A DNA stretch of 64,000 nucleotides, taken from NCBI RefSeq assembly GCF_016734905.1, contig NZ_JAERPO010000001.1:372001-436000 (forward strand). Direction: 5' to 3'. The DNA comes from Sphingopyxis jiangsuensis. GTDB taxonomy: Bacteria; Pseudomonadota; Alphaproteobacteria; Sphingomonadales; Sphingomonadaceae. A program made the position numbers and the translations under genes. Below the pieces are notes generated by a model that did not search any database, was not told the origin of the DNA, and was given only the letters and a program-made list of their open reading frames with translations. Shown here piece after piece: positions 46,529 to 56,592 of the stretch (position 1 is its first letter; each line of letters starts with the position of its first letter).

Positions 46529-48607
46529 TCAACCCCAGACGCGGACGCGCTTTTCGGGCGGCAGATACAGCTTGTCGGTCGGCTTGACGTCGAACGCCTT
46601 GTACCAGGCGTCGAGGTTTCGGACCGTCAGCGCGCGATACATACCCGGCGCGTGGCCGTCGGTCGCAACGCGCTGGCGCAGCGCGGCGTCGCGCATCTTT
46701 GTTGCCCAGGTCTGCGCAAAGGCGATGAAGAAACGCTGGTCGCCGGTGAAGCCGTCGATGACCGGCGCCTCCTTGCCGCCCAGCGACGCGCGATAGGCGT
46801 CATAGGCCGCCTGCAGCCCGGCAACGTCGGCGATATTTTCGCCCAGCGTCAGCTTGCCGTTGATCGCGAGGTCGGGGAACGGCTTGTACTGGTCATATTG
46901 CTCGGCGAGCGCCTGGCCTGCTTCCTCGAACTTCCGGAGGTCGGCGTCGGTCCACCAGTTGCGCAGCGCGCCGGTCGAATCGAAGGCCGCGCCATTATTG
47001 TCAAAGCTGTGGCTGATTTCGTGGCCGATAACCGCGCCGATCGCACCGTAATTATACGCGGGATCGGCTTTGGGGTTAAAGAAGGGCGGCTGAAGGATGG
47101 CGGCGGGGAAGTTCAGCGCGTTCTGCACGGGCAGGTTGATCGCGTTGACCGTCTGCGGCGTCATCCACCATTCGTCGCGGTCCATCGGCTTGCCGATCTT
47201 GGCAAGCTGGTGCGCGGTTTCGGCCTTTTCGCCCGCGACGGCATTGGCATAAGCGCTGTTCCCCACGTTGAAACGCCCATAGTCACGCCATGTATCGGGG
47301 TAGCCGACCCCGACGACGATGGTCTCGACCTTCTTGATCGCTTCCTTTTTCGTTTCGGGTGCCATCCAGTCGATCGTTTCGACGCGCTTGGCAAAGGCGG
47401 TCTTGATCCCTTCGACCATGTCGCCGACTTCGGCCTTTGCCGCGGCAGGGAAATATTTATCGGCATAGGCCTTGCCCACGGCGTCGCCGAGATACTGGTT
47501 CAACGCCGCCAGCGCACGCTTGTCGCGGCTGCGCTGTTCGGGCGTCCCTGACAAGGTCGTACCGTAAAAGGCGAAATGCGCCTGATCGAGTTTCGTCGGC
47601 AGCACATCGGTGTGCATGTTGATCTGATGGAAGGCGAGCCAGTCTTTCCAGGCGTCGAGCGGCTCGCTTGCGACCAGTTTCGACAGGCGCGTGATGGCGG
47701 CGGGGTGATAGGCGGCGAACTTGCCCGCCTTGCCGAGGTTGGATGACGCGAAATAGGCCTGCCAATCGAGTCCCGGCGCCTTCTTGTCGAAATCGGCGCG
47801 CGTCCACACCGTGGCCGACTTGGTGAAATCCTCGCTCTCTTCGCGCGGCGCGTGCGCGCGCGCGATCTTCGTTTCGAGGTCATAGATTCGTGCCGCCTTG
47901 GCCTCGGCATCGGCGATGCCCGACAAGGTCAGCAGGTGGACGATATAGGCGCGATAGGCCGCGCGGATCTCGCCCATCTTCGGATCGTCCGACAGATAAT
48001 ATTCGCGCTCGGGAAGGCCGAGTCCACCCTGCAGCATATAGGGGAGCACCTCGCCCGGCGTCGAAAGCCCTTGGGTCACGAACAGGCCGAACAGATTCTC
48101 GGTATGGAAATCGGTGAAGTTGAGCGGATCGACATCGACGCGTGCCTGCTCACCCAGAACCTTTGCAAGGCCGGCCTTGTCCGCGATTGCCGAAAAACGC
48201 GCCAGATCGGCCTCGACCGGCTTCATTCCGGCAGCGTCGATCGCGGCGGTGTCCATATAGGCGTTATAGAAGGACGCGATGCGCGCCTCGTTGCTGCCCT
48301 CGGCCGGCTTGCCCTTCAGAATCGCCTCGACGAGTTCGCGGTTACGCTTCTCGGTCTCGAGGAACGCGATGTAAAAGGAACCGATCGACGACCGATCGGC
48401 GGGAATTTCGGTCGTTTTCTGCCAATTGCCGTTCGCATAGGCGTAGAAATCGTCACCCGGGTTGACCGAGGTGTCCATGGCCGTCTTGCTGATGCCAAGC
48501 TCGGTTCCGACGGTGTACACCGACTCCTTTTCGGCGCTGGTGCAGGCTGCGGTGCCCACTGCGATCGCGGTCGTCGCCAAAAGGACGGCAAGTACGGAAT
48601 GTCTCAT
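46529..48607 (-). CDS. M13-family metallopeptidase (neprilysin/PepO type)
   Basis: A 692-residue peptidase. A signal sequence is followed by Cys22 in VGTAACTSAEK, a possible lipobox. The zinc motif HEISHSFDNNG and the third-ligand region LGENIADVAGLQAAYDAY are typical of M13, as is the C-terminal PPEKRVRVWG. It probably trims small peptides in the periplasm or at the surface. The gene lies between two parts of the acyl-CoA catabolic block on the opposite strand and has no functional link to leucine breakdown that I can see. Confidence 0.93.
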   Translation of the reverse strand: MRHSVLAVLLATTAIAVGTAACTSAEKESVYTVGTELGISKTAMDTSVNPGDDFYAYANGNWQKTTEIPADRSSIGSFYIAFLETEKRNRELVEAILKGKPAEGSNEARIASFYNAYMDTAAIDAAGMKPVEADLARFSAIADKAGLAKVLGEQARVDVDPLNFTDFHTENLFGLFVTQGLSTPGEVLPYMLQGGLGLPEREYYLSDDPKMGEIRAAYRAYIVHLLTLSGIADAEAKAARIYDLETKIARAHAPREESEDFTKSATVWTRADFDKKAPGLDWQAYFASSNLGKAGKFAAYHPAAITRLSKLVASEPLDAWKDWLAFHQINMHTDVLPTKLDQAHFAFYGTTLSGTPEQRSRDKRALAALNQYLGDAVGKAYADKYFPAAAKAEVGDMVEGIKTAFAKRVETIDWMAPETKKEAIKKVETIVVGVGYPDTWRDYGRFNVGNSAYANAVAGEKAETAHQLAKIGKPMDRDEWWMTPQTVNAINLPVQNALNFPAAILQPPFFNPKADPAYNYGAIGAVIGHEISHSFDNNGAAFDSTGALRNWWTDADLRKFEEAGQALAEQYDQYKPFPDLAINGKLTLGENIADVAGLQAAYDAYRASLGGKEAPVIDGFTGDQRFFIAFAQTWATKMRDAALRQRVATDGHAPGMYRALTVRNLDAWYKAFDVKPTDKLYLPPEKRVRVWG

Positions 48608-48750
48608 CTTTTACCCTATGGTTTTGGAAAGTTACGGGAGCGATAGCCCTCTCGCCAGTTCGTTTCAATGCCAACCAAATTCGCCGGGCGGTGCTTCCCA
48701 ATCGACCAGCGACAGGCTAACCCGCAGCCTTGGATGGGAGAAGATGAGCA

Positions 48751-50409
48751 GTGGCCGCACCGGTTCTTACGACGCTTTATAACGCCGACGACGCGGCAAC
48801 GCAGGCGCGTTCGATGCACAATCGCGCGCTTCGCGACGATCTGTGGGCGCGGGTTGCCGCCTCGGCGCTTGGAGGCAGCGAAAAATCGCGCGAACGCCAT
48901 ACGAGCCGCGGCAAGCTGCTCCCGCGCGAGCGCGTCGAGCGGCTGCTCGATCCCGGCTCGCCCTTTCTCGAAATCGGCCAGCTCGCGGCGTGCGACATGT
49001 ATGGCGGCGAAGTGCCCGGCGCCGGGATGATCGCCGGCATTGGCCGTGTGTCGGGGCGACAGGCGATGATCGTCTGCAACGACGCGACGGTAAAGGGCGG
49101 CACCTATTATCCGATGACGGTCAAGAAGCATCTCCGCGCGCAGGAGATTGCCGAGGCGAACCGCCTGCCCTGCATCTACCTTGTCGATAGCGGCGGCGCG
49201 AACCTGCCGCATCAGGCCGAGGTATTTCCCGACCGCGACCATTTCGGGCGCATCTTTTTCAACCAGGCGAATATGTCGGCAAAGCGCATCCCGCAGATCG
49301 CCTGCGTGATGGGAAGCTGCACCGCGGGCGGCGCTTACGTGCCCGCGATGTCGGACGAGACGGTGATCGTGCGGGGCCAGGGCACGATCTTCCTCGCCGG
49401 ACCGCCGCTCGTGAAGGCCGCAACTGGCGAGGAAATCAGCGCCGAAGACCTCGGCGGCGGCGATCTGCACGCGAAGAAGTCGGGCGTCGTCGACCATCTC
49501 GCCGAGAATGACGAACATGCGCTGACGATCGTGCGCGATATTATGTCGCACCTCTCTGGTCCGTTCGTGTCGAGCGAAGTCGAGACACCGGGCGGTCATG
49601 CGCGTGCGATGGGCATCTCGGCTTCGCTCGATGCGAACGGGATTAGAGAACCGCGCCCGCCCAAATATGACCCCGAAGAGCTCTACGGCATCATCCCCGA
49701 GGATGTCCGCGCGCCCTATGACGTCCACGAGGTGATCGCGCGCATCGTCGATGCCAGCGAGTTTCACGAGTTCAAGGCGAACTACGGCAGCACGCTCGTT
49801 TGCGGCTTCGCGCACATCTGGGGCATCCCCGTCGCGATCCTCGCCAGCAATGGCGTGCTGTTCAGCGAAAGCGCGGTCAAGGGCGCGCATTTCATCGAAC
49901 TGGCGCAGCAGCGGCGCATTCCCCTCCTTTTCCTCCAGAATATCAGCGGCTTCATGGTCGGTGGGAAATATGAGGCAGAAGGTATTGCAAAACATGGGGC
50001 AAAGCTGGTGACAGCCGTGGCAACGGCCACCGTGCCGAAAATCACGGTGCTGATCGGCGGCAGCTTCGGCGCGGGCAATTACGGCATGTGCGGGCGCGCC
50101 TATAGCCCACGCTTCCTCTTCACCTGGCCCAATGCGCGGATCAGCGTGATGGGCGGCGAGCAGGCGGCGAGCGTGCTGGCGACCGTCCACCGCGACGCCG
50201 ACAAATGGACGGCGGAGGAAGCCGAAGCCTTCAAGGCGCCGATCCGCCAGAAATATGAGGATGAAGGCAATCCCTATCACGCCACCGCGCGCCTGTGGGA
50301 CGATGGCATCATCGACCCCGCGCAGACGCGCGACGTGCTGGGCCTCGCCTTCGCCGCAACGCTGAACGCCCCGGTCGAAGACCGCGGGTTCGGCGTGTTC
50401 AGAATGTAA
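48751..50409 (+). CDS. mccB: Methylcrotonyl-CoA carboxylase beta (carboxyltransferase) subunit with in-frame repeat insertion
   Basis: A 552-residue carboxyltransferase that, with MccA, carboxylates 3-methylcrotonyl-CoA. Family features include [55 protein letters not shown], and the end [17 protein letters not shown]. Compared with human MCCB as I recall it, this protein has about 20 extra residues at about 270-299. That segment ([13 protein letters not shown] and [10 protein letters not shown]) is the translation of a palindromic repeat, also seen at 54154-54214. The frame is kept. The start is a GTG behind GGGAGAAG. The substrate could also be geranyl-CoA. Confidence 0.88.
49561..49641 (+). 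repeat. Palindromic repeat inside mccB, in frame
   Basis: Arms at 49561-49587 (TTCGTGTCGAGCGAAGTCGA is part of it) and 49614-49641 are inverted copies matching at about 23 of 27 positions. About 26 bases separate them. The left arm is identical over 27 bases to the inverse of the right arm of the free copy at 54154-54214. Confidence 0.8.
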
Positions 50410-50419
50410 GGGTGCTGCA

Positions 50420-50725
50420 ATGATTGCCCGTCGCTGGCACGGTATCGTTCTCCGCGAAAAGTCCGACGCCTACCGCAGGCTGATGATCGAAGTCGCGATT
50501 CCGGATTATCAGTCGATCGTCGGCAATCGCGGTGCGTGGTGTCTGACAAGAGAAGACGGTGCGCTGGTTCATTTCGAAATGCTGACGTTTTGGGATAGTT
50601 ACCAGGCAATCGAAGCCTTCGCCGGAAGCCCGCTCGACGCTGCGAAATATTATGATTTCGACGCGGATTTTTTAATCGAGCAGGAACCGACAGTCCTGCA
50701 TTTCGAAGTGAGCACCAACGCATGA
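50420..50725 (+). CDS. Small protein with a dimeric alpha/beta-barrel (ABM-like) fold
   Basis: A 101-residue protein beginning MIARRWHGIVLREKSDAYRR. The pattern of a central FEMLTFWDSYQAIEAFAG helix and a final strand PTVLHFEVSTNA fits ABM-type monooxygenase or stress-response barrels, which are usually dimeric. No active-site residues can be named. It lies between mccB and a relic of mccA, and its stop overlaps the ATG of that relic, so it seems to be an old operon member. It is somewhat AT-richer than mccB. A short remnant of its 3' end recurs at 51576-51601. Confidence 0.65.
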   Translation: MIARRWHGIVLREKSDAYRRLMIEVAIPDYQSIVGNRGAWCLTREDGALVHFEMLTFWDSYQAIEAFAGSPLDAAKYYDFDADFLIEQEPTVLHFEVSTNA

Positions 50726-50835
50726 TCCAATCCCTCCTCATCGCCAATCGCGGCGAGATCGCCTGCCGGATCATTCGCACCGCGCGCAAATCCCATCTTG
50801 TCGGCGACAAGATCATCGCCGCGACCATAGGGTGA
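50722..50835 (+). pseudogene. Truncated duplicate of the mccA 5' end
   Basis: A 37-codon frame begins with the same 22 codons as mccA (only two base differences), then jumps to codons 59-69 of mccA (GDKIIAA) and ends in TGA. The missing part is about 35 codons and keeps the frame. It is too short to be a biotin carboxylase. The 26 bases upstream are also similar to those before mccA. A CPBP protease gene lies between the two copies. I read it as the scar of a duplication or recombination. Confidence 0.85.
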
Positions 50836-50839
50836 CACA

Positions 50840-51562
50840 ATGCCCAACTCGCTGATTTCAATCCTGATCATCATCGCCATGCTGCTTGCCGCTGGTTTTG
50901 CACTCGGTTTGGCGAGGCGGTCCAATTTTGCGCCGCGCTGGCTTTTCGCCGCCGCCCTCATCGTCTTCATCAATGACGCCTTGCTCACAAATCTCTATGG
51001 GCTCTTGCCCGACCTGTTCGAGGGTTCGGATTGGAACTGGCAAGGCAAGTTGCTCGCGCTCGCCGCGACACTGGCCATCGCGGCGCACCCCGCATTTGGA
51101 TGGCGCCGGTCGGGCCTGACGCTTGTGCAAGCGCCCGGATCGGCCAAGAGCGCCGCACTTGCCGTACTTCTATATTGCCTGTTCATGCTGGGGCTGGCGC
51201 TTGTCTTCCCCAATCAGGAAGCGTCGGCCGAACGAATCGCGTTTCAGCTCACCATGCCCGGGCTTGAAGAAGAGCCATTCTATCGCGGCATATTGTTACT
51301 CGCGCTCAACGAGGCCTTTCGTGGCCGCGTGCGCGCGCTGGGTATCGACTGGGGCTGGAGTGCGATGCTGTCGTCCGCGCTTTTCGGTCTTGCCCATGCA
51401 TTCAGCTATTCGGCGGACGGTGGCGCGAGTTTCGATGCGCTGACGATGGCGCTCACCGCCGTTCCTTCGCTGCTGGTCGTCTGGTTGCGCGAACGCACTG
51501 GCAGTCTATTGCTGCCCGTCGTCATGCACAATTTCGGCAATTCGATCTTGGCAATGGTGTAA
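50840..51562 (+). CDS. CPBP-family intramembrane metalloprotease
   Basis: A 240-residue membrane protein with about seven helices. The family motifs are EEEPFYRGIL (glutamates of motif 1), LFGLAHAFSY (motif 2 His), and LPVVMHNFGNSILAMV (motif 3 His/Asn). CPBP proteases process prenylated or other small membrane proteins; some bacterial members give bacteriocin self-immunity. It starts 5 bases past the mccA relic, whose end (AGGGTGA) may act as its ribosome binding site. Its location inside the leucine cluster is probably due to insertion. No bacteriocin gene is nearby. Confidence 0.85.
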   Translation: MPNSLISILIIIAMLLAAGFALGLARRSNFAPRWLFAAALIVFINDALLTNLYGLLPDLFEGSDWNWQGKLLALAATLAIAAHPAFGWRRSGLTLVQAPGSAKSAALAVLLYCLFMLGLALVFPNQEASAERIAFQLTMPGLEEEPFYRGILLLALNEAFRGRVRALGIDWGWSAMLSSALFGLAHAFSYSADGGASFDALTMALTAVPSLLVVWLRERTGSLLLPVVMHNFGNSILAMV

Positions 51563-51575
51563 CGATGCCTCCCTT

Positions 51576-51667
51576 CTGCATTTCGGAATGAGCAAAGACC
51601 AATGATCCAATCCCTCCTCATCGCCAATCGCGGCGAGATTGCCTGCCGGATCATTCGAACCGCGCGC
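51576..51667 (+). repeat. Second copy of the duplicated segment at the mccA start
   Basis: This segment matches 50696-50787: the first 26 bases at about three quarters, and the 66 bases from the ATG at 64 of 66. The pre-ATG part encodes a remnant of the ABM-like gene end (LHFGMSKDQ and a stop) overlapping the mccA start. The pair brackets the CPBP gene. Confidence 0.8.
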
Positions 51668-53545
51668 GAAATGGGCATTCGGACCATCGCGGTCTATTCG
51701 GACGCCGATGCCAAGGCGCTTCACGTCCGGCAAGCCGACGAGGCGGTGCATATCGGGCCGTCGCCGGCGCGCGAATCCTATCTTGTCGGCGACAAGATCA
51801 TCGCCGCGGCGCAAGCGACGGGCGCACAGGCGATCCATCCGGGCTACGGCTTCCTCTCCGAAAATGCCGAATTCGCGCAGGCCGTCATCGACGCCGGGCT
51901 GATCTGGGTCGGGCCGAAACCTTCGTCGATCACCGCGATGGGACTGAAGGATGCCGCCAAGAAGCTGATGGCCGAAGCGGGGGTGCCCGTCACCCCCGGC
52001 TATATGGGCGAAAATCAGGACCCCGGCTATCTCGCCGAACAGGCGGCCGAAATCGGCTACCCCGTGCTGATCAAGGCCGTGGCTGGCGGCGGCGGCAAGG
52101 GGATGCGCAAGGTCGACAGCGCCGCCGACTTCGCCGACGCGCTCGCCTCGTGCCAGCGCGAGGCGGCGGCGTCGTTCGGCAACGACCATGTGCTGATCGA
52201 GAAATATATCCTCACCCCGCGTCATATCGAGGTGCAGATATTCGGCGACACGCACGGCAATGTCGTCCATCTGTTCGAGCGCGACTGCTCGCTTCAGCGC
52301 CGCCATCAGAAGGTGATCGAGGAGGCCCCTGCTCCCGGCATGGACGACGCGACGCGCGCCGAGCTGTGCGCCGCCGCGGTACGCGCAGCAAAAGCCGTCG
52401 ATTATGTCGGCGCGGGAACGATCGAGTTCATCGCCGACGCCTCCGAAGGCCTGCGCGCCGACCGCATCTGGTTCATGGAAATGAACACGCGGTTGCAGGT
52501 CGAACATCCGGTGACCGAGGAAATCACCGGCGTCGACCTTGTCGAATGGCAACTCCGCGTCGCGAGCGGCGAACCTATCCCGCTGGCGCAGGACGAGCTT
52601 GCCATCGACGGCTGGGCGATGGAGGCGCGGCTTTATGCCGAGGATCCCACAACGGGTTTCCTTCCAAGCACTGGCACGCTCGTCGAGTTCGACTTGGGTT
52701 ATCGAGCCCGCATCGACTCGGGCGTCGAACTAGGTGATTCGATCTCGCCCTACTATGACCCGATGATCGCCAAGCTCATCACATCGGGGCCAAATCGACA
52801 CGCGGCCGGATATCGATTGCTTGAAGCTGTTCGCCAAGTTCAGGTTTGGCCCGTCAAAACCAATGCAGCGTTTCTCGGCTCATGCCTTCTGGACGAGGAC
52901 TTCATAGCGGGCAATTTCGATACAGGATTGATCCAGCGCAAAGTGGATGCACTGACTACGGCGCCCCCTGTTGACGATGCCGAGAAGAGCGCAGGCGTCT
53001 TGAACCTGCTCCGAGCGGAGAGCGGCGATCCAATGCGATCGCCGCTTCAAAGGCCCGATGGCTCTCCCGATTGGTCGGTGCACAATAGTTCACGACTGAA
53101 TAGCTTATTTGGTTTTCGACTAAACAATGCTCCCAACCGCCTGATCCGGATGACCGTCGATGGCGAGCCAACCAGCGTCAGGCTGGCCGAACCGCTTCTT
53201 GGCAATCGGAACAAGCACTACGGCCGCTATGGCGACGCATGGAGCCGACTGGGCGAGGGGTTTGTCCATCGCTTCACTCTGGAGTCGCGTTTCCATGGCG
53301 GCACCGCCGGCACGGCGGGCGACGGCGCAATCCTCTCTCCCATGCCCGGCAAGATCATCGCGGTCGAAGTCGCGGCGGGCGACACTGTCGTGAAGGGCCA
53401 GAAACTGCTCACCCTCGAAGCAATGAAGATGGAGCACAGCCTGACCGCGCCCTTCGACGGGGTCGTCGCCGAACTCAACGCGGTCGCCGGGGCGCAGGTG
53501 CAGGTCGAAGCGTTGCTGGTGAAGATCGACGCGGCAGAAGAATAG
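51602..53545 (+). CDS. mccA: Methylcrotonyl-CoA carboxylase alpha (biotin) subunit
   Basis: A 647-residue subunit with biotin carboxylase domains (about 1-445; ATP-grasp segment KAVAGGGGKGMRKV, then EMNTRLQVEHPVTE), a linker domain, and a C-terminal biotin carrier domain. The biotin lysine is Lys609 in LEAMKMEHS. From about residue 343 to 543 codon use shifts toward A/T-rich codons and then shifts back, although the protein reads normally. That looks like a recombined segment. The gene is preceded by a duplicate relic of its own 5' end. With mccB it forms the carboxylase. Confidence 0.92.
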   Translation: MIQSLLIANRGEIACRIIRTAREMGIRTIAVYSDADAKALHVRQADEAVHIGPSPARESYLVGDKIIAAAQATGAQAIHPGYGFLSENAEFAQAVIDAGLIWVGPKPSSITAMGLKDAAKKLMAEAGVPVTPGYMGENQDPGYLAEQAAEIGYPVLIKAVAGGGGKGMRKVDSAADFADALASCQREAAASFGNDHVLIEKYILTPRHIEVQIFGDTHGNVVHLFERDCSLQRRHQKVIEEAPAPGMDDATRAELCAAAVRAAKAVDYVGAGTIEFIADASEGLRADRIWFMEMNTRLQVEHPVTEEITGVDLVEWQLRVASGEPIPLAQDELAIDGWAMEARLYAEDPTTGFLPSTGTLVEFDLGYRARIDSGVELGDSISPYYDPMIAKLITSGPNRHAAGYRLLEAVRQVQVWPVKTNAAFLGSCLLDEDFIAGNFDTGLIQRKVDALTTAPPVDDAEKSAGVLNLLRAESGDPMRSPLQRPDGSPDWSVHNSSRLNSLFGFRLNNAPNRLIRMTVDGEPTSVRLAEPLLGNRNKHYGRYGDAWSRLGEGFVHRFTLESRFHGGTAGTAGDGAILSPMPGKIIAVEVAAGDTVVKGQKLLTLEAMKMEHSLTAPFDGVVAELNAVAGAQVQVEALLVKIDAAEE

Positions 53546-53556
53546 ACCCTGTTGTT

Positions 53557-53585
53557 CGTCACCCCGGACTTGATCCGGGGTCCAT
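53557..53585. repeat. Single-arm repeat after mccA
   Basis: CGTCACCCCGGACTTGATCC followed by GGGGTCCAT is one arm of the family found as a pair at 16171-16246. It can form a hairpin by itself and lies 12 bases past the mccA stop. Confidence 0.6.
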
Positions 53586-53677
53586 CGCCGGTCGTTACGT
53601 TCAACGCCGCGCCAGACGAAAGAACAGGCCATGGATGCTGTAACAAACTCAGCATCACGATTTTTGGGAGCTAAAGA

Positions 53678-54127
53678 ATGGCCGGCAAATTTTTCGACGA
53701 ATGGACCATCGGCGCCACGCTGACCCACGACATCCGGCGCACGGTGACCGAAACCGACAATCTTCTGTTCACGACGATGACGCACAATCCCCAGCCGTTG
53801 CACCTCGACGTCGAAGCGGCGAAGGCGTCCGAGTTCGGGCAGATCCTCGTCAACGGCACCTTCACCTTCAGCCTGATGGTCGGGCTGTCGGTCGGCGACA
53901 CGACGCTCGGCACGCTCGTCGCGAACCTCGGCTATGACAAGCTCGTGATGCCCAAGCCCGTGTTCATCGGCGACACGCTCCGCGCGACGAGCGAGGTGAT
54001 CGCGCTCAAGGAATCGAAATCGCGGCCCAACGCCGGGATCGTCACCTTCCTGCACAAGGCGATCAACCAGCGCGACGAAATTGTGTGCCAGTGCGAACGC
54101 TCGGCGCTGATCAAGCGAAAAGACTGA
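53678..54127 (+). CDS. MaoC-family dehydratase/hydratase
   Basis: A 149-residue hotdog-fold hydratase. The MaoC signature [20 protein letters not shown] includes the catalytic Asp/His area, and [16 protein letters not shown] follows. Such proteins hydrate enoyl-CoA compounds; one subgroup acts on mesaconyl-CoA. It follows mccA and precedes a CitE-like lyase. I infer a role in the step after carboxylation (methylglutaconyl-CoA hydration), normally done by a crotonase. Another CoA substrate is possible. No ribosome binding site stronger than GGGAG is seen. Confidence 0.85.
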
Positions 54128-54153
54128 ATCGTCCCCTTGGGGTCAGGACCCTT

Positions 54154-54214
54154 GGTTCGAGCGAAGTCGAGAACCACTGACCCCTCGCATGTCTCGACTT
54201 CGCTCGACACGAAC
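54154..54214. repeat. Palindromic repeat upstream of the CitE-like gene
   Basis: Arms GGTTCGAGCGAAGTCGAGAA (starting 54154) and the inverse at 54191-54214 flank a short spacer. The right arm, inverted, is identical over 27 bases to part of mccB. This is the free copy of the repeat inserted in mccB. Confidence 0.8.
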
Positions 54215-54229
54215 GGCATAGGTGATGGC

Positions 54230-55081
54230 ATGAGACTCCGCTCGCTCCTCTTCGTCCCGGGCGACCGCCCCGAGCGTTTCGCCAAGGCCGCGGCTTCGGG
54301 CGCCGACGCGATCATCCTCGATCTGGAAGATTCGGTTGCGCTCGCCAACAAGGAGGCCGCGCGCGGCCATGTCGCCGATTATCTTGCGGGCGCGCGCGCG
54401 GTGTTCACGCTCGTTCGCGTCAACCCGCTCGACGGGCATATGACGGCGGCGGACGTCGCCGCCATCGTCGACGCACGCCCCGACGCGATCATGCTCCCGA
54501 AGGCAGAAGGCGCACCGAGCATCGCGCAGCTCGATACCATCCTGCGCAGCGAAGGCAGCGATGCGGCATCGCTTCCGGCAATCCTGCCGATAGCGACCGA
54601 AACCCCCACGGCGGTCTTCACGCTCGGCAGCTACCGCGAGGCAAAGAGCCGCCTCGCTGGCCTCACCTGGGGCGCGGAGGACCTGCCTGCCGCCATCGGT
54701 GCGGCGACGAGCCGTGAGGATGATGGAAATTACACCGACCCTTATCGCGTCGTCCGCGCTCTGACGCTCTTTGCCGCGCACGCGGCGGGCGTGGCCGCCA
54801 TCGACACCGTATTTCCGGCGATCAAGGATGAAGCCGGCCTCGCAACCTATGCCGCCCGCGCGCGCCGCGATGGCTTTACCGGCATGATGGCGATCCACCC
54901 GTCGCAGGTGGCACCGATCAACGCTGCCTTCACCCCCTCTGTCGAAGAGGTCCACCGCGCGCAGGCGATTGTCGACGCCTTTGCCGCAAGCCCCGGCGCG
55001 GGCGTGTTGCAGGTCGACGGAAAGATGGTCGATGCGCCGCATCTCAAGCAGGCGCTTCACATATTGTCGCTTGCCGACTAG
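54230..55081 (+). CDS. CitE-like CoA lyase (HpcH/HpaI family)
   Basis: A 283-residue TIM barrel beginning MRLRSLLFVPGDRPERFAKA. The family motifs are DAIILDLEDSVALANKEAAR, then VRVNPLDG, MLPKAEGAPS, and GLTWGAEDLPAAIGA, with the acidic metal ligands. Related enzymes cleave malyl-CoA or citramalyl-CoA. Its place after mccA and MaoC suggests cleavage of a hydroxylated CoA product, perhaps 3-hydroxy-3-methylglutaryl-CoA, but that activity is unproven for the family. The ATG follows AGGTGAT; an open frame upstream is translated repeat. Confidence 0.85.
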   Translation: MRLRSLLFVPGDRPERFAKAAASGADAIILDLEDSVALANKEAARGHVADYLAGARAVFTLVRVNPLDGHMTAADVAAIVDARPDAIMLPKAEGAPSIAQLDTILRSEGSDAASLPAILPIATETPTAVFTLGSYREAKSRLAGLTWGAEDLPAAIGAATSREDDGNYTDPYRVVRALTLFAAHAAGVAAIDTVFPAIKDEAGLATYAARARRDGFTGMMAIHPSQVAPINAAFTPSVEEVHRAQAIVDAFAASPGAGVLQVDGKMVDAPHLKQALHILSLAD

Positions 55082-55098
55082 GGTTCTGACCCTGGCCG

Positions 55099-56592
55099 CT
55101 AACGCTTGCCGCGAAATGGGCGGTGGCGTTTCGCCCATTTCTTGCCGCGCCGCCAATGCTTGCGAAGTCCGCGCGCGGCAAAGCCTTCGAACATCTGGTC
55201 GGGACTGGCGGGGTCGAGCAGTTCATTCTCCGCAATGAACTCGTCGAGCGGGCCGGGTGCGGTCAGGTCGAGGCGGTCGAGCGTCCGCCCCTTCCCCCGC
55301 AGCGAGTCGACCGTTTCGATGAGCGAGCCACACGCGTCGAAACGCCGCGCAACATCGTCCGGATCGACGCCCAGATGCTCGGCGAGCAGCGATTCGCGCA
55401 GCATCCGGATGGTCGGACCGACATCGCGATTGGCGGCAAGGCCGACGTCGATGGTGACATCGCATTCGCTGTCGAGCGCCATCGAACGGTTGTTGAGGTT
55501 CGCCGACCCCACACGGATCACGCGGTCGTCGATGATCGTCGTCTTGGAATGGACATAGATGGGCTGGCCGCCTGCGGTGCGCGGGACATAGATGCGCAGC
55601 CGGTCGCCGTGGCGCGCTTTCGCGATCTGGCGGACCAGCACGACACGCGCGGCGTCCATCGCCTTTTGCTCGAGCCAGCCGTCGGCAGTCTCGGGCATCA
55701 CCAGGACAAATTCGGGCGCATCGTCTTCGTCGAGGCGTTCGGCGATTGCGGCCGCCATGGTCGCGCAGGTGAAATATTGATTTTCGATATAAACGAAGCG
55801 CTTGGCTGCCGCGATCATGTCGAGATAGAGTTGCTCGATCTCGCGCACCGGCTCGCACCCGTCATATTCGGCGCGCGTGCGCGAAATCGCAACGTCGACG
55901 TTGCGAAAATGCGGATCGAGGTCGTCGGGCCAATTCTCGCCAACGCCGCTCAGATCGCGCAGCGGTTTGCGCGTCGCGCGCTGCCAGCGCTCGTTGCCGA
56001 GTTCGGCGAGCGCTTCGCCGACCTTGCCCGCGAGCATCATCGTCGAATCGTGCCAGGGCATGTAAGTGGCGCCGTCGGGCGCGACGCGGCAGGGCTCGTC
56101 GTCGCGATGTGCGCGCGTGTCCCAGCGACGCGAGCCCACGTCGATCCCGCCGCACACCGCCAGATGGTCGTCGAAAACCGCGACCTTCTGATGATGGCTG
56201 CATCCTACGGGATGCGCGCTGTCGAGCCGGAAGCTGATCGACCGCGTCACTTTCCAGCGCAGCACCATCGCGAGGATGCGCGGGATCGCGAAATGTTTGA
56301 GCGCGCCGAAATTCCATCGCAAAATGTCGATGTCGCGGTCGGGGCGCTCTTTCGCCAGGCGGAGCATGTAATGGCCGAGCGATTCGCCCTTGCCGTCGCT
56401 GCCCGGCAACAGCGAGATGCGCGGGTCGAAATCCCAGCCGATCAACAGCACGCGCTCCTTTGCGCCATCCATCAGGCGGGCAAGCAGCGCGTAATAGTCG
56501 GCGGCATCGACGATCAGGCGGGCCGCGTCGGCGCCTTCTATTCGCCAGCAATTGCGCCCCTCGGCGACGATGGGGGGGACAGTATCGGTCAT
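55099..56592 (-). CDS. Phospholipase D-like protein (PLD superfamily)
   Basis: A 497-residue protein with two HKD catalytic motifs: HHQKVAVFDD near residue 140 and HSKTTIIDDRVIRVGSAN near 355. The region between carries IENQYFTCATMAAAIAERL. Two full motifs in one chain fit phospholipase D or cardiolipin synthase, but no membrane helix is visible, so a soluble PLD is likelier. A basic tail (RKHWRRGKKWAKRHR) may touch membranes or nucleic acid. I took the ATG at 56592; a GTG at 56604 is possible. It converges with the CitE-like gene. Confidence 0.87.
   Translation of the reverse strand: MTDTVPPIVAEGRNCWRIEGADAARLIVDAADYYALLARLMDGAKERVLLIGWDFDPRISLLPGSDGKGESLGHYMLRLAKERPDRDIDILRWNFGALKHFAIPRILAMVLRWKVTRSISFRLDSAHPVGCSHHQKVAVFDDHLAVCGGIDVGSRRWDTRAHRDDEPCRVAPDGATYMPWHDSTMMLAGKVGEALAELGNERWQRATRKPLRDLSGVGENWPDDLDPHFRNVDVAISRTRAEYDGCEPVREIEQLYLDMIAAAKRFVYIENQYFTCATMAAAIAERLDEDDAPEFVLVMPETADGWLEQKAMDAARVVLVRQIAKARHGDRLRIYVPRTAGGQPIYVHSKTTIIDDRVIRVGSANLNNRSMALDSECDVTIDVGLAANRDVGPTIRMLRESLLAEHLGVDPDDVARRFDACGSLIETVDSLRGKGRTLDRLDLTAPGPLDEFIAENELLDPASPDQMFEGFAARGLRKHWRRGKKWAKRHRPFRGKR

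Follow-up and report, generated by a model that had tools for sequence, protein, structure and literature searches.

Rickettsia palindromic elements (RPE), reportedly described by Ogata and co-workers in 2000 and 2002, are said to lie inside protein genes. In REPINs, two REP hairpins in inverted orientation make up a single unit, mostly intergenic and present in tens of copies; to our knowledge, insertion into coding sequence is not part of their definition. REPINs and RAYT transposases are the subject of Bertels and Rainey (2011; PMC3116915). The RPE are 105–146 bp long and specific to Rickettsia (PMC2229807). Intragenic REPs of the GTAG and CGTC types have been described from many genes, as short single REPs and as dimers, the dimers or grouped repeats encoding 20–30 residues (Di Nocera et al., 2013; PMC3733652). 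Among the genes concerned are truB and those of tRNA synthetases from Erythrobacter litoralis and Sphingopyxis alaskensis, and the authors consider that the encoded stretches could be flexible linkers or loops. About the same site was used only in recB of two Xanthomonas, the other genes of that category having different sites. The CGTC REPs are defined by a CGTC (or TGTC/CCTC) end, a stem of 8–9 bp that begins with A-T pairs, and a CCA tail (PMC3733652). In its main-text section on intragenic REPs mccB is not named, the gene list being placed in Additional file 3; the portion consulted of a further REP survey (PMC12306157) contains neither "Sphingo" nor "in-frame". Perfect inverted repeats of up to 284 bp are also known within protein-coding genes of Nematomorpha mitochondria (PMC6649704).

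Here we describe a palindromic repeat family, S1, of Sphingopyxis jiangsuensis, one copy of which is read in frame within mccB, located in the analyzed window of 64,000 nucleotides. Like RPE, S1 is a dispersed palindrome read in frame within a conserved enzyme, the gene not being lost, and close relatives have the orthologue without it. Unlike RPE, it is about 70–85 bp long and belongs to free-living sphingomonads; moreover, the refilling of one protein site by unrelated families, as seen here, is not described for RPE in the consulted text of PMC2229807. A preliminary description of the window had drawn the parallel with Rickettsia; the phenomenon proved peculiar neither to mccB nor to one repeat family. 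With the REPs of Di Nocera et al., S1 has in common that short repeats or their dimers occur within genes, but by inspection it lacks a GTAG or CGTC end, and the sites recur over many genera and with several families. As in REPINs with RAYT transposases, two inverted hairpins make up a mostly intergenic unit of tens of copies, but no transposase is linked to S1 in this genome. In contrast to the palindromes of animal (Nematomorpha) mitochondria, S1 is a dispersed bacterial repeat family.

The mccB gene and the palindrome within it

The mccB product matched PF01039 with 508.3 bits in Pfam, its top PDB sequence matches were AccD1/MCC beta, and Foldseek with the MccB model retrieved human MCC (8j4z, TM 0.86) and the MCC beta subunit of P. 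aeruginosa (3u9r). The sole NCBIfam match was mmdA, under the cut-off. The partner gene mccA at 51602–53545 encodes biotin carboxylase and biotinyl domains. By the PF01039 match, the mccA neighbor and the structure match, MccB is a carboxyl transferase beta subunit adjoining the biotin carboxylase subunit.

The coordinates of the repeat and its host gene are compiled in Table 1. A repeat of about 80 bases with inverted arms in an open reading frame had been claimed in the preliminary description, and both points were borne out: the arms (49561–49585 and 49616–49640, 25 nt each and 30 nt apart) are 88% complementary, and the frame stays open through the repeat, whose first codon is CCG at 49561 and whose last, GGG, ends at 49641. 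The 28 extra residues placed there at 270–299 were off by no more than a few, as the repeat itself accounts for 27 codons. The proposed identity of the left arm with the inverse of an arm in a free copy is exact over 27 bases (CCGTTCGTGTCGAGCGAAGTCGAGACA) at 54190–54216. This free copy follows a stop codon that ends at 54127 and precedes the ATG at 54230 with which an HpcH/HpaI aldolase-like gene starts. Compared with the GTG-type core, the right arm in mccB has 3 differences in 19 positions, and two of them make up the GCA/TGC stem type that is found in free copies too; one GTG/CAC arm combined with one GCA/TGC arm is the arrangement of many free copies. The stem score of the mccB linker (L120) was 17.5 against a mean of 6.4 in shuffled sequences, and none of 200 mononucleotide shuffles equaled it (here and below, shuffling kept base composition only).

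Table 1. Positions of the host gene, the in-frame repeat with its arms, and the free copy in the window.
Feature	Position	Strand	Remark
mccB, beta subunit of methylcrotonyl-CoA carboxylase (carboxyl transferase)	48751..50409	+	Open 552-codon frame carrying the repeat
In-frame palindromic repeat of family S1, two inverted REP-like arms and a loop	49561..49641	+	Read as 27 residues
Left arm of the mccB repeat, GTG..CAC stem type	49561..49589	+	Exact core match, genome C1:421567-421585
Right arm of the mccB repeat, GCA..TGC stem type	49613..49641	-	Read as protein on the + strand
Free S1 copy, intergenic, with a left arm of GGT..ACC type	54148..54216	.	Exact core in right arm; left end approximate

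Downstream of mccB, the start of mccA is duplicated (50696–50815 and 51576–51800), the two copies agreeing at 89% over 95 nt and at 94% over 34 nt. The truncated copy (MIQSLLIANRGEIACRIIRTARKSHLVGDKIIAATIG*), which has an internal deletion, stands ahead of a CPBP/Rce1-like protease gene at 50840–51562, the full mccA starting at 51602. On the + strand of the stretch examined, five of six relatives (L038–L040, L042 and L043) showed a single start of mccA and lacked a CPBP motif; in the stretch examined of the sixth (L041), no mccA start was seen.

Dispersal of S1 and its relation to known repeats

When up to 2 mismatches were allowed, the S1 core, GTGTCGAGCGAAGTCGAGA, matched the genome of 3.13 Mb 48 times, and the reversed-pattern control had no match. 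Allowing 3 mismatches, S1 occupied 33 places with 59 arms, 26 of the places being two-armed, and the consensus arm was CCGTTCGtgTCGAGCGAAGTCGAGAcaCC. The outer triplets were complementary in 49 of the 59 arms (GTG/CAC in 29, GCA/TGC in 16, GCG/CGC in 2, and GGT/ACC and GCC/GGC in 1 each). Since they pair in differing combinations, the change is compensatory, as expected for a REP-type hairpin. The predicted hairpin energies of three arm types ranged from -4.8 to -7.5 kcal/mol, and many copies were close to the end of an ORF, at a distance of about 30 nt or less. Overall, S1 has the general traits of REPs and REPINs, namely short palindromes in tens of copies and inverted, hairpin-forming pairs.

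Rfam returned no family match up to E 1 for window positions 48500–55200. By inspection, the conserved end of S1 is CCGTTCG and not that of GTAG REPs, and the consensus arm is unlike the end, stem and tail given above for CGTC REPs. Membership in REPINs mobilized by RAYT was not supported either, the genome's single Y1_Tnp match (G000 C2:966635) not being flanked by S1. This Y1 transposase match (at 1465–2130 of L118, which is G000 C2:965135–968461) has 34-nt inverted repeats alongside, unlike S1, the repeats beside it lying at 1361–1394, 2126–2159 and 2160–2187 of L118; it scored 76.8 bits as REP_Tyr_transpos, the cut-off being 80. A tie between this transposase and S1 was rejected because the inverted repeats alongside the sole match are unrelated.

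Of the 33 S1 copies, two proved to lie in coding sequence, those in mccB and carA. For the other 31, no coding position was demonstrated by ORFs and GC3, considered for all copies, together with Pfam searches of 10 candidate ORFs; among these long ORFs running across the repeat, domains flanked it on both sides in carA alone. In the others the repeat precedes the Pfam domain, and they were taken as probable upstream over-extensions, a judgment made for the group as a whole. They comprised SufB/SufD-like, MFS transporter, DUF4153, two aminotransferase, His_biosynth and amidohydrolase ORFs, as well as a Mur ligase and a peptidase S66 on opposite strands.

Related MccB proteins with and without the repeat

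The next question is whether the segment is native protein. The check proposed in the preliminary description, an alignment with related MccB, showed that 77 of 80 related proteins from named genomes are without it, and that the remaining three carry an S1 repeat, confirmed in their DNA. The nearest Sphingopyxis proteins (L038–L041) have 530 residues against 550 and lack the segment. Close homologues with the same residues but no repeat DNA, which had been named as the refutation of an insertion, were not encountered among the 80; as the four nearest proteins are without the segment and 20 residues shorter, the case for native protein fails this test. The comparison supports the segment being an inserted repeat, as had been proposed, with the correction that it is not a bare insertion: the 27 repeat residues stand in the place of about 7 in the relatives.

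The three named carriers, a Sphingomonadaceae MAG, Erythrobacter sp. WG and an Altererythrobacter MAG, have S1 at the same linker and in the same frame, and an 81-row tree that took in all 80 named rows needed four changes for these and the window protein. In a 70-row tree built without the insert columns, from which 23 of the 80 named native rows were left out and in which 30 of 67 inner branches were well supported, the MccB of S. indica was the sister of the window protein (support 98/88) and was empty. On this tree, 16 carriers need 14 changes, or 15 if the state scored is the repeat family, and on this ground a single ancestral insert was rejected as the main story.

Unrelated repeat families at one MccB linker

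The search of the repeat in other genomes together with its coding context, also suggested beforehand, revealed that the same MccB site recurs with other families and that other proteins are affected too. A profile made from four S1 carriers was searched in 397 genomes of the family, 369 of which had a match, and at least 17 genomes, including the own one, were carriers at the MccB linker. Because the profile favors S1 and the carriers were counted among the matches listed, this number is a lower bound. At least three unrelated families, with labels assigned by eye, filled the linker: S1, S2 (CTGAGCYTGTCGAAGG) and S3 (CCCAGYGNAGGCTGGG / CCCGCGMAGGCGGGG). S1 or single S1 arms occurred in L119 (the genome of L046), L121, L122, L123, L129, L131 and L132, with a single arm by sequence in L131, L129 and L132; S2, read as LSLSKG..FD.LS, in L124 and L127; and S3, read as PAFAGA and similar, in L125, L128, L130, L236 and L238. 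The long linkers L126 and L235 had no clear family label, and a possible repeat remnant in L179 was left out of the counts.

For each of the three families there is at least one carrier in whose own genome the family is dispersed, and this is true of most carriers, not all. The number of S1 arms was 30 in G116, 60 in G079, 58 in G129, 55 in G200, 108 in G397 (L042) and 113 in G398 (L044), but few were found in G240 (6) and G340 (5), and no exact one in G295. For S2, matches with up to 2 mismatches numbered 85 in G204 (control 7) and 12 in G181 (control 3). S3 had 92 matches in G361, 47 in G223 and 19 in G208, with few in G149 (4) and G137 (3).

The palindromic nature of the linkers was assessed for 165 MccB linkers read from 169 loci, 16 of them long (at least 21 residues) and 149 short. 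Among the long ones, 11 gave p ≤0.005 and L126 gave 0.010, while the palindrome was not significant in L235 (0.05), L236 (0.07), L131 (0.39) and L123 (0.495). The short linkers reached p <0.05 in 17 cases against about 7 expected, with a mean stem of 5.7 versus 5.2 in shuffles, and repeat pieces sit in a few of these low-p linkers (L129, L132 and L238).

Recurrence in other enzymes

Outside MccB, recurrence was most strongly seen in valyl-tRNA synthetase (ValRS), which was matched in 145 of 149 family genomes. An enlarged linker of 22–60 residues was present in at least 32 of these 145 (L279–L308, G054 and G068), and the native linker measured 10–13 residues in 19 of 20 further genomes sampled (L355 was not parsed). 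The stem tests, in which 48 of 50 linkers were read in a first run and 52 of 53 in a later one, found 30 of the 32 enlarged linkers palindromic at p <0.05 and 29 at p ≤0.01, the exceptions L295 and L300 having p 0.19 each; in comparison, none of the 19 linkers of native length reached p 0.05. By eye, at least five repeat families are present. A native query was also searched in 115 genomes of the class. In 96 of 97 readable genomes of other families in the class, the 96 having been selected manually among the matches listed, the match was continuous over the site with no insert of 20 or more residues; the remaining genome (G481) has a long low-complexity insert which was not significantly palindromic (p 0.093). 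One ValRS linker (L305, from G023) reads RHSELVSES..ILKHVQDDE, and no shuffle reached its stem. This peptide is also known from palindromic repeats of other bacteria.

In the own CarA, the S1 repeat falls at about residues 202–224, between the CPSase domain (21–146) and the glutaminase domain (239–419). CarA was matched in 146 of 149 family genomes, and among 30 loci fetched, nine had a long palindromic linker (the own one, L150–L154, L156, L157 and L159), the repeats being S1, S2 and two further families by eye; L158 and L160 are longer yet not palindromic. In the linkers L154, L156 and L159 the S1 arms are reversed, the STSLD arm standing before the SSEVE arm, as if two neighboring elements or an inverted layout were involved.

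Since a DNA-based choice of elements is meant to avoid protein-level bias, 20 S1 elements per genome were taken in order of place from G079 and G129, with mccB left out and, in G129, C1:1071380 omitted from among the first 21 places. Coding was called by ORF and GC3 thresholds together with Pfam, and with NCBIfam for the G129 proteins. Two of the 20 elements were coding in G079 (RNase R and ValRS) and three of 20 in G129 (PutA, RNase R and ValRS), the RNase R and ValRS sites being identical in these two genera. The PutA linker, between the two enzymes of this protein, was filled once (G129), and the RNase R of G129 was just under the NCBIfam cut-off. RNase R was matched in 132 of 149 genomes, and of 30 linkers fetched, 26 were read; eight had a palindrome at p ≤0.005 (L309, L310, L311, L316, L317, L319, L321 and L323), and L314 and L326 were long with no significant palindrome. 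The linkers in RNase R of G091 (L311, 69 residues) and ValRS of G124 (L304, 59–60 residues) are very long and possibly consist of stacked repeats.

Reading frame and predicted structure

All three frames of the S1 consensus arm are free of stops, and 47 of 51 coding S1 arms were read as SSEVE or STSLD (52 arms matched, a spurious third arm with 3 mismatches in L149 being set aside). As the protein queries themselves carried this frame, the fair count is that of the seven elements that came from the window or from DNA searches, in which 13 of 14 arms had it. The bias fits selection against the other, arginine-rich readings.

The AlphaFold2 model of MccB (45 rows) was of moderate confidence, with a mean pLDDT of 73.5 and pTM of 0.80. 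The predicted structure agrees with the earlier placement of the segment in a linker: pLDDT falls below 50 at residues 269–294, between helices 252–264 and 306–312, and the plain reading of the model is a disordered linker.

Discussion

The repeat in mccB belongs to a family dispersed in the genome and is absent from the sister lineage. With high confidence, we interpret it as an S1 REP palindrome that inserted in frame into a tolerant linker of MccB, such loops being filled repeatedly and independently. One of the about 33 S1 elements would have entered mccB once this lineage had parted from that of S. indica, landing in the linker between the carboxyl transferase halves and replacing about 7 native residues with the frame kept, so that the insert would be read as a hydrophilic stretch of 27 residues. 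S1 would be a selfish element, moved by a transposase acting in trans, and the insert would be tolerated by the MccB loop as neutral for the enzyme, while insertions elsewhere in genes would be purged. Each palindrome family spreading in a sphingomonad genome would in this way test the few permissive loops and persist there as a flexible linker. If tolerant loops are few and every family tests them, repeated and independent filling of the MccB, CarA, RNase R and ValRS sites would follow.

The recurrence at the same sites might instead reflect true insertion hotspots, at which the elements or the enzyme moving them prefer some DNA feature and target choice adds to tolerance. Five coding matches among 40 sampled S1 elements in three proteins, two of them common to both genera, the frequency of enlarged ValRS linkers (at least 32 of 145 genomes) and the use of one site by unrelated families all speak in favor of this. 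However, no shared target sequence is evident by eye among the native sites, most sampled S1 copies were not found in genes, and the sites are common to families of different sequence, which speaks for something in the protein loop and against a target motif. We regard such hotspots as rather unlikely. Nevertheless, mere tolerance is no obvious explanation for the same few sites, and target choice may contribute.

Positive selection could keep repeat-made linkers if a longer or more flexible linker were of use, or if an mRNA hairpin slowed translation between domains. The strong frame bias, the position of the CarA and PutA inserts between domains and the divergence of the L044 and L121 inserts from each other without stops are consistent with it. 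On the other side, presence is patchy even within genera, 149 of 165 MccB linkers are short, and purifying selection alone suffices for the frame bias, which makes this explanation improbable.

Still less can be said for one old insertion in a common ancestor followed by many losses. The same site and, for S1, the same frame in several lineages would agree with it, as would the excess of short MccB linkers with a low stem p (17 of 149, about 7 expected). Different families occupy the site, though, the tree needs 14 changes, the nearest relatives are empty and each loss would have to restore a linker of native length; the mean stem of the short linkers, moreover, hardly exceeds that of shuffles (5.7 vs 5.2). 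Such a history is very improbable. Nothing was found in favor of a native segment resembling repeats by chance, and this reading is refuted by the exact 27-base identity with the free copy, the genome-wide family, the empty relatives, the repeat-bearing DNA of the three other carriers and the shuffle test.

Returning to S1 and the other families as insertions into tolerant loops, coding REPs are known in kind, and the new part, as far as searched, is that acceptor sites are shared by unrelated families. Recurrent acceptor sites of this sort were not found reported in a search that covered titles and the beginnings of abstracts of open-access papers. A wider proposal is offered tentatively, as one that we hold to be less likely than not: a few loops of core enzymes (ValRS, MccB, CarA, RNase R and perhaps PutA) might be lineage-wide acceptor sites, to which unrelated selfish palindromes are preferentially delivered or in which they are preferentially kept, the linkers and loops of Sphingomonadales enzymes being built repeatedly and convergently from mobile DNA.

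Coding palindromes have so far been regarded mainly as a curiosity of Rickettsia and scattered genomes. Here a given loop of a given enzyme has received insertions many times independently, and this amounts to a natural replicate experiment, which lets one ask about target choice versus filtering, about how changeable a loop is and about the later tuning of linkers. The variable linkers of these sphingomonad enzymes are partly mobile DNA, and this matters for alignments, trees and annotation.
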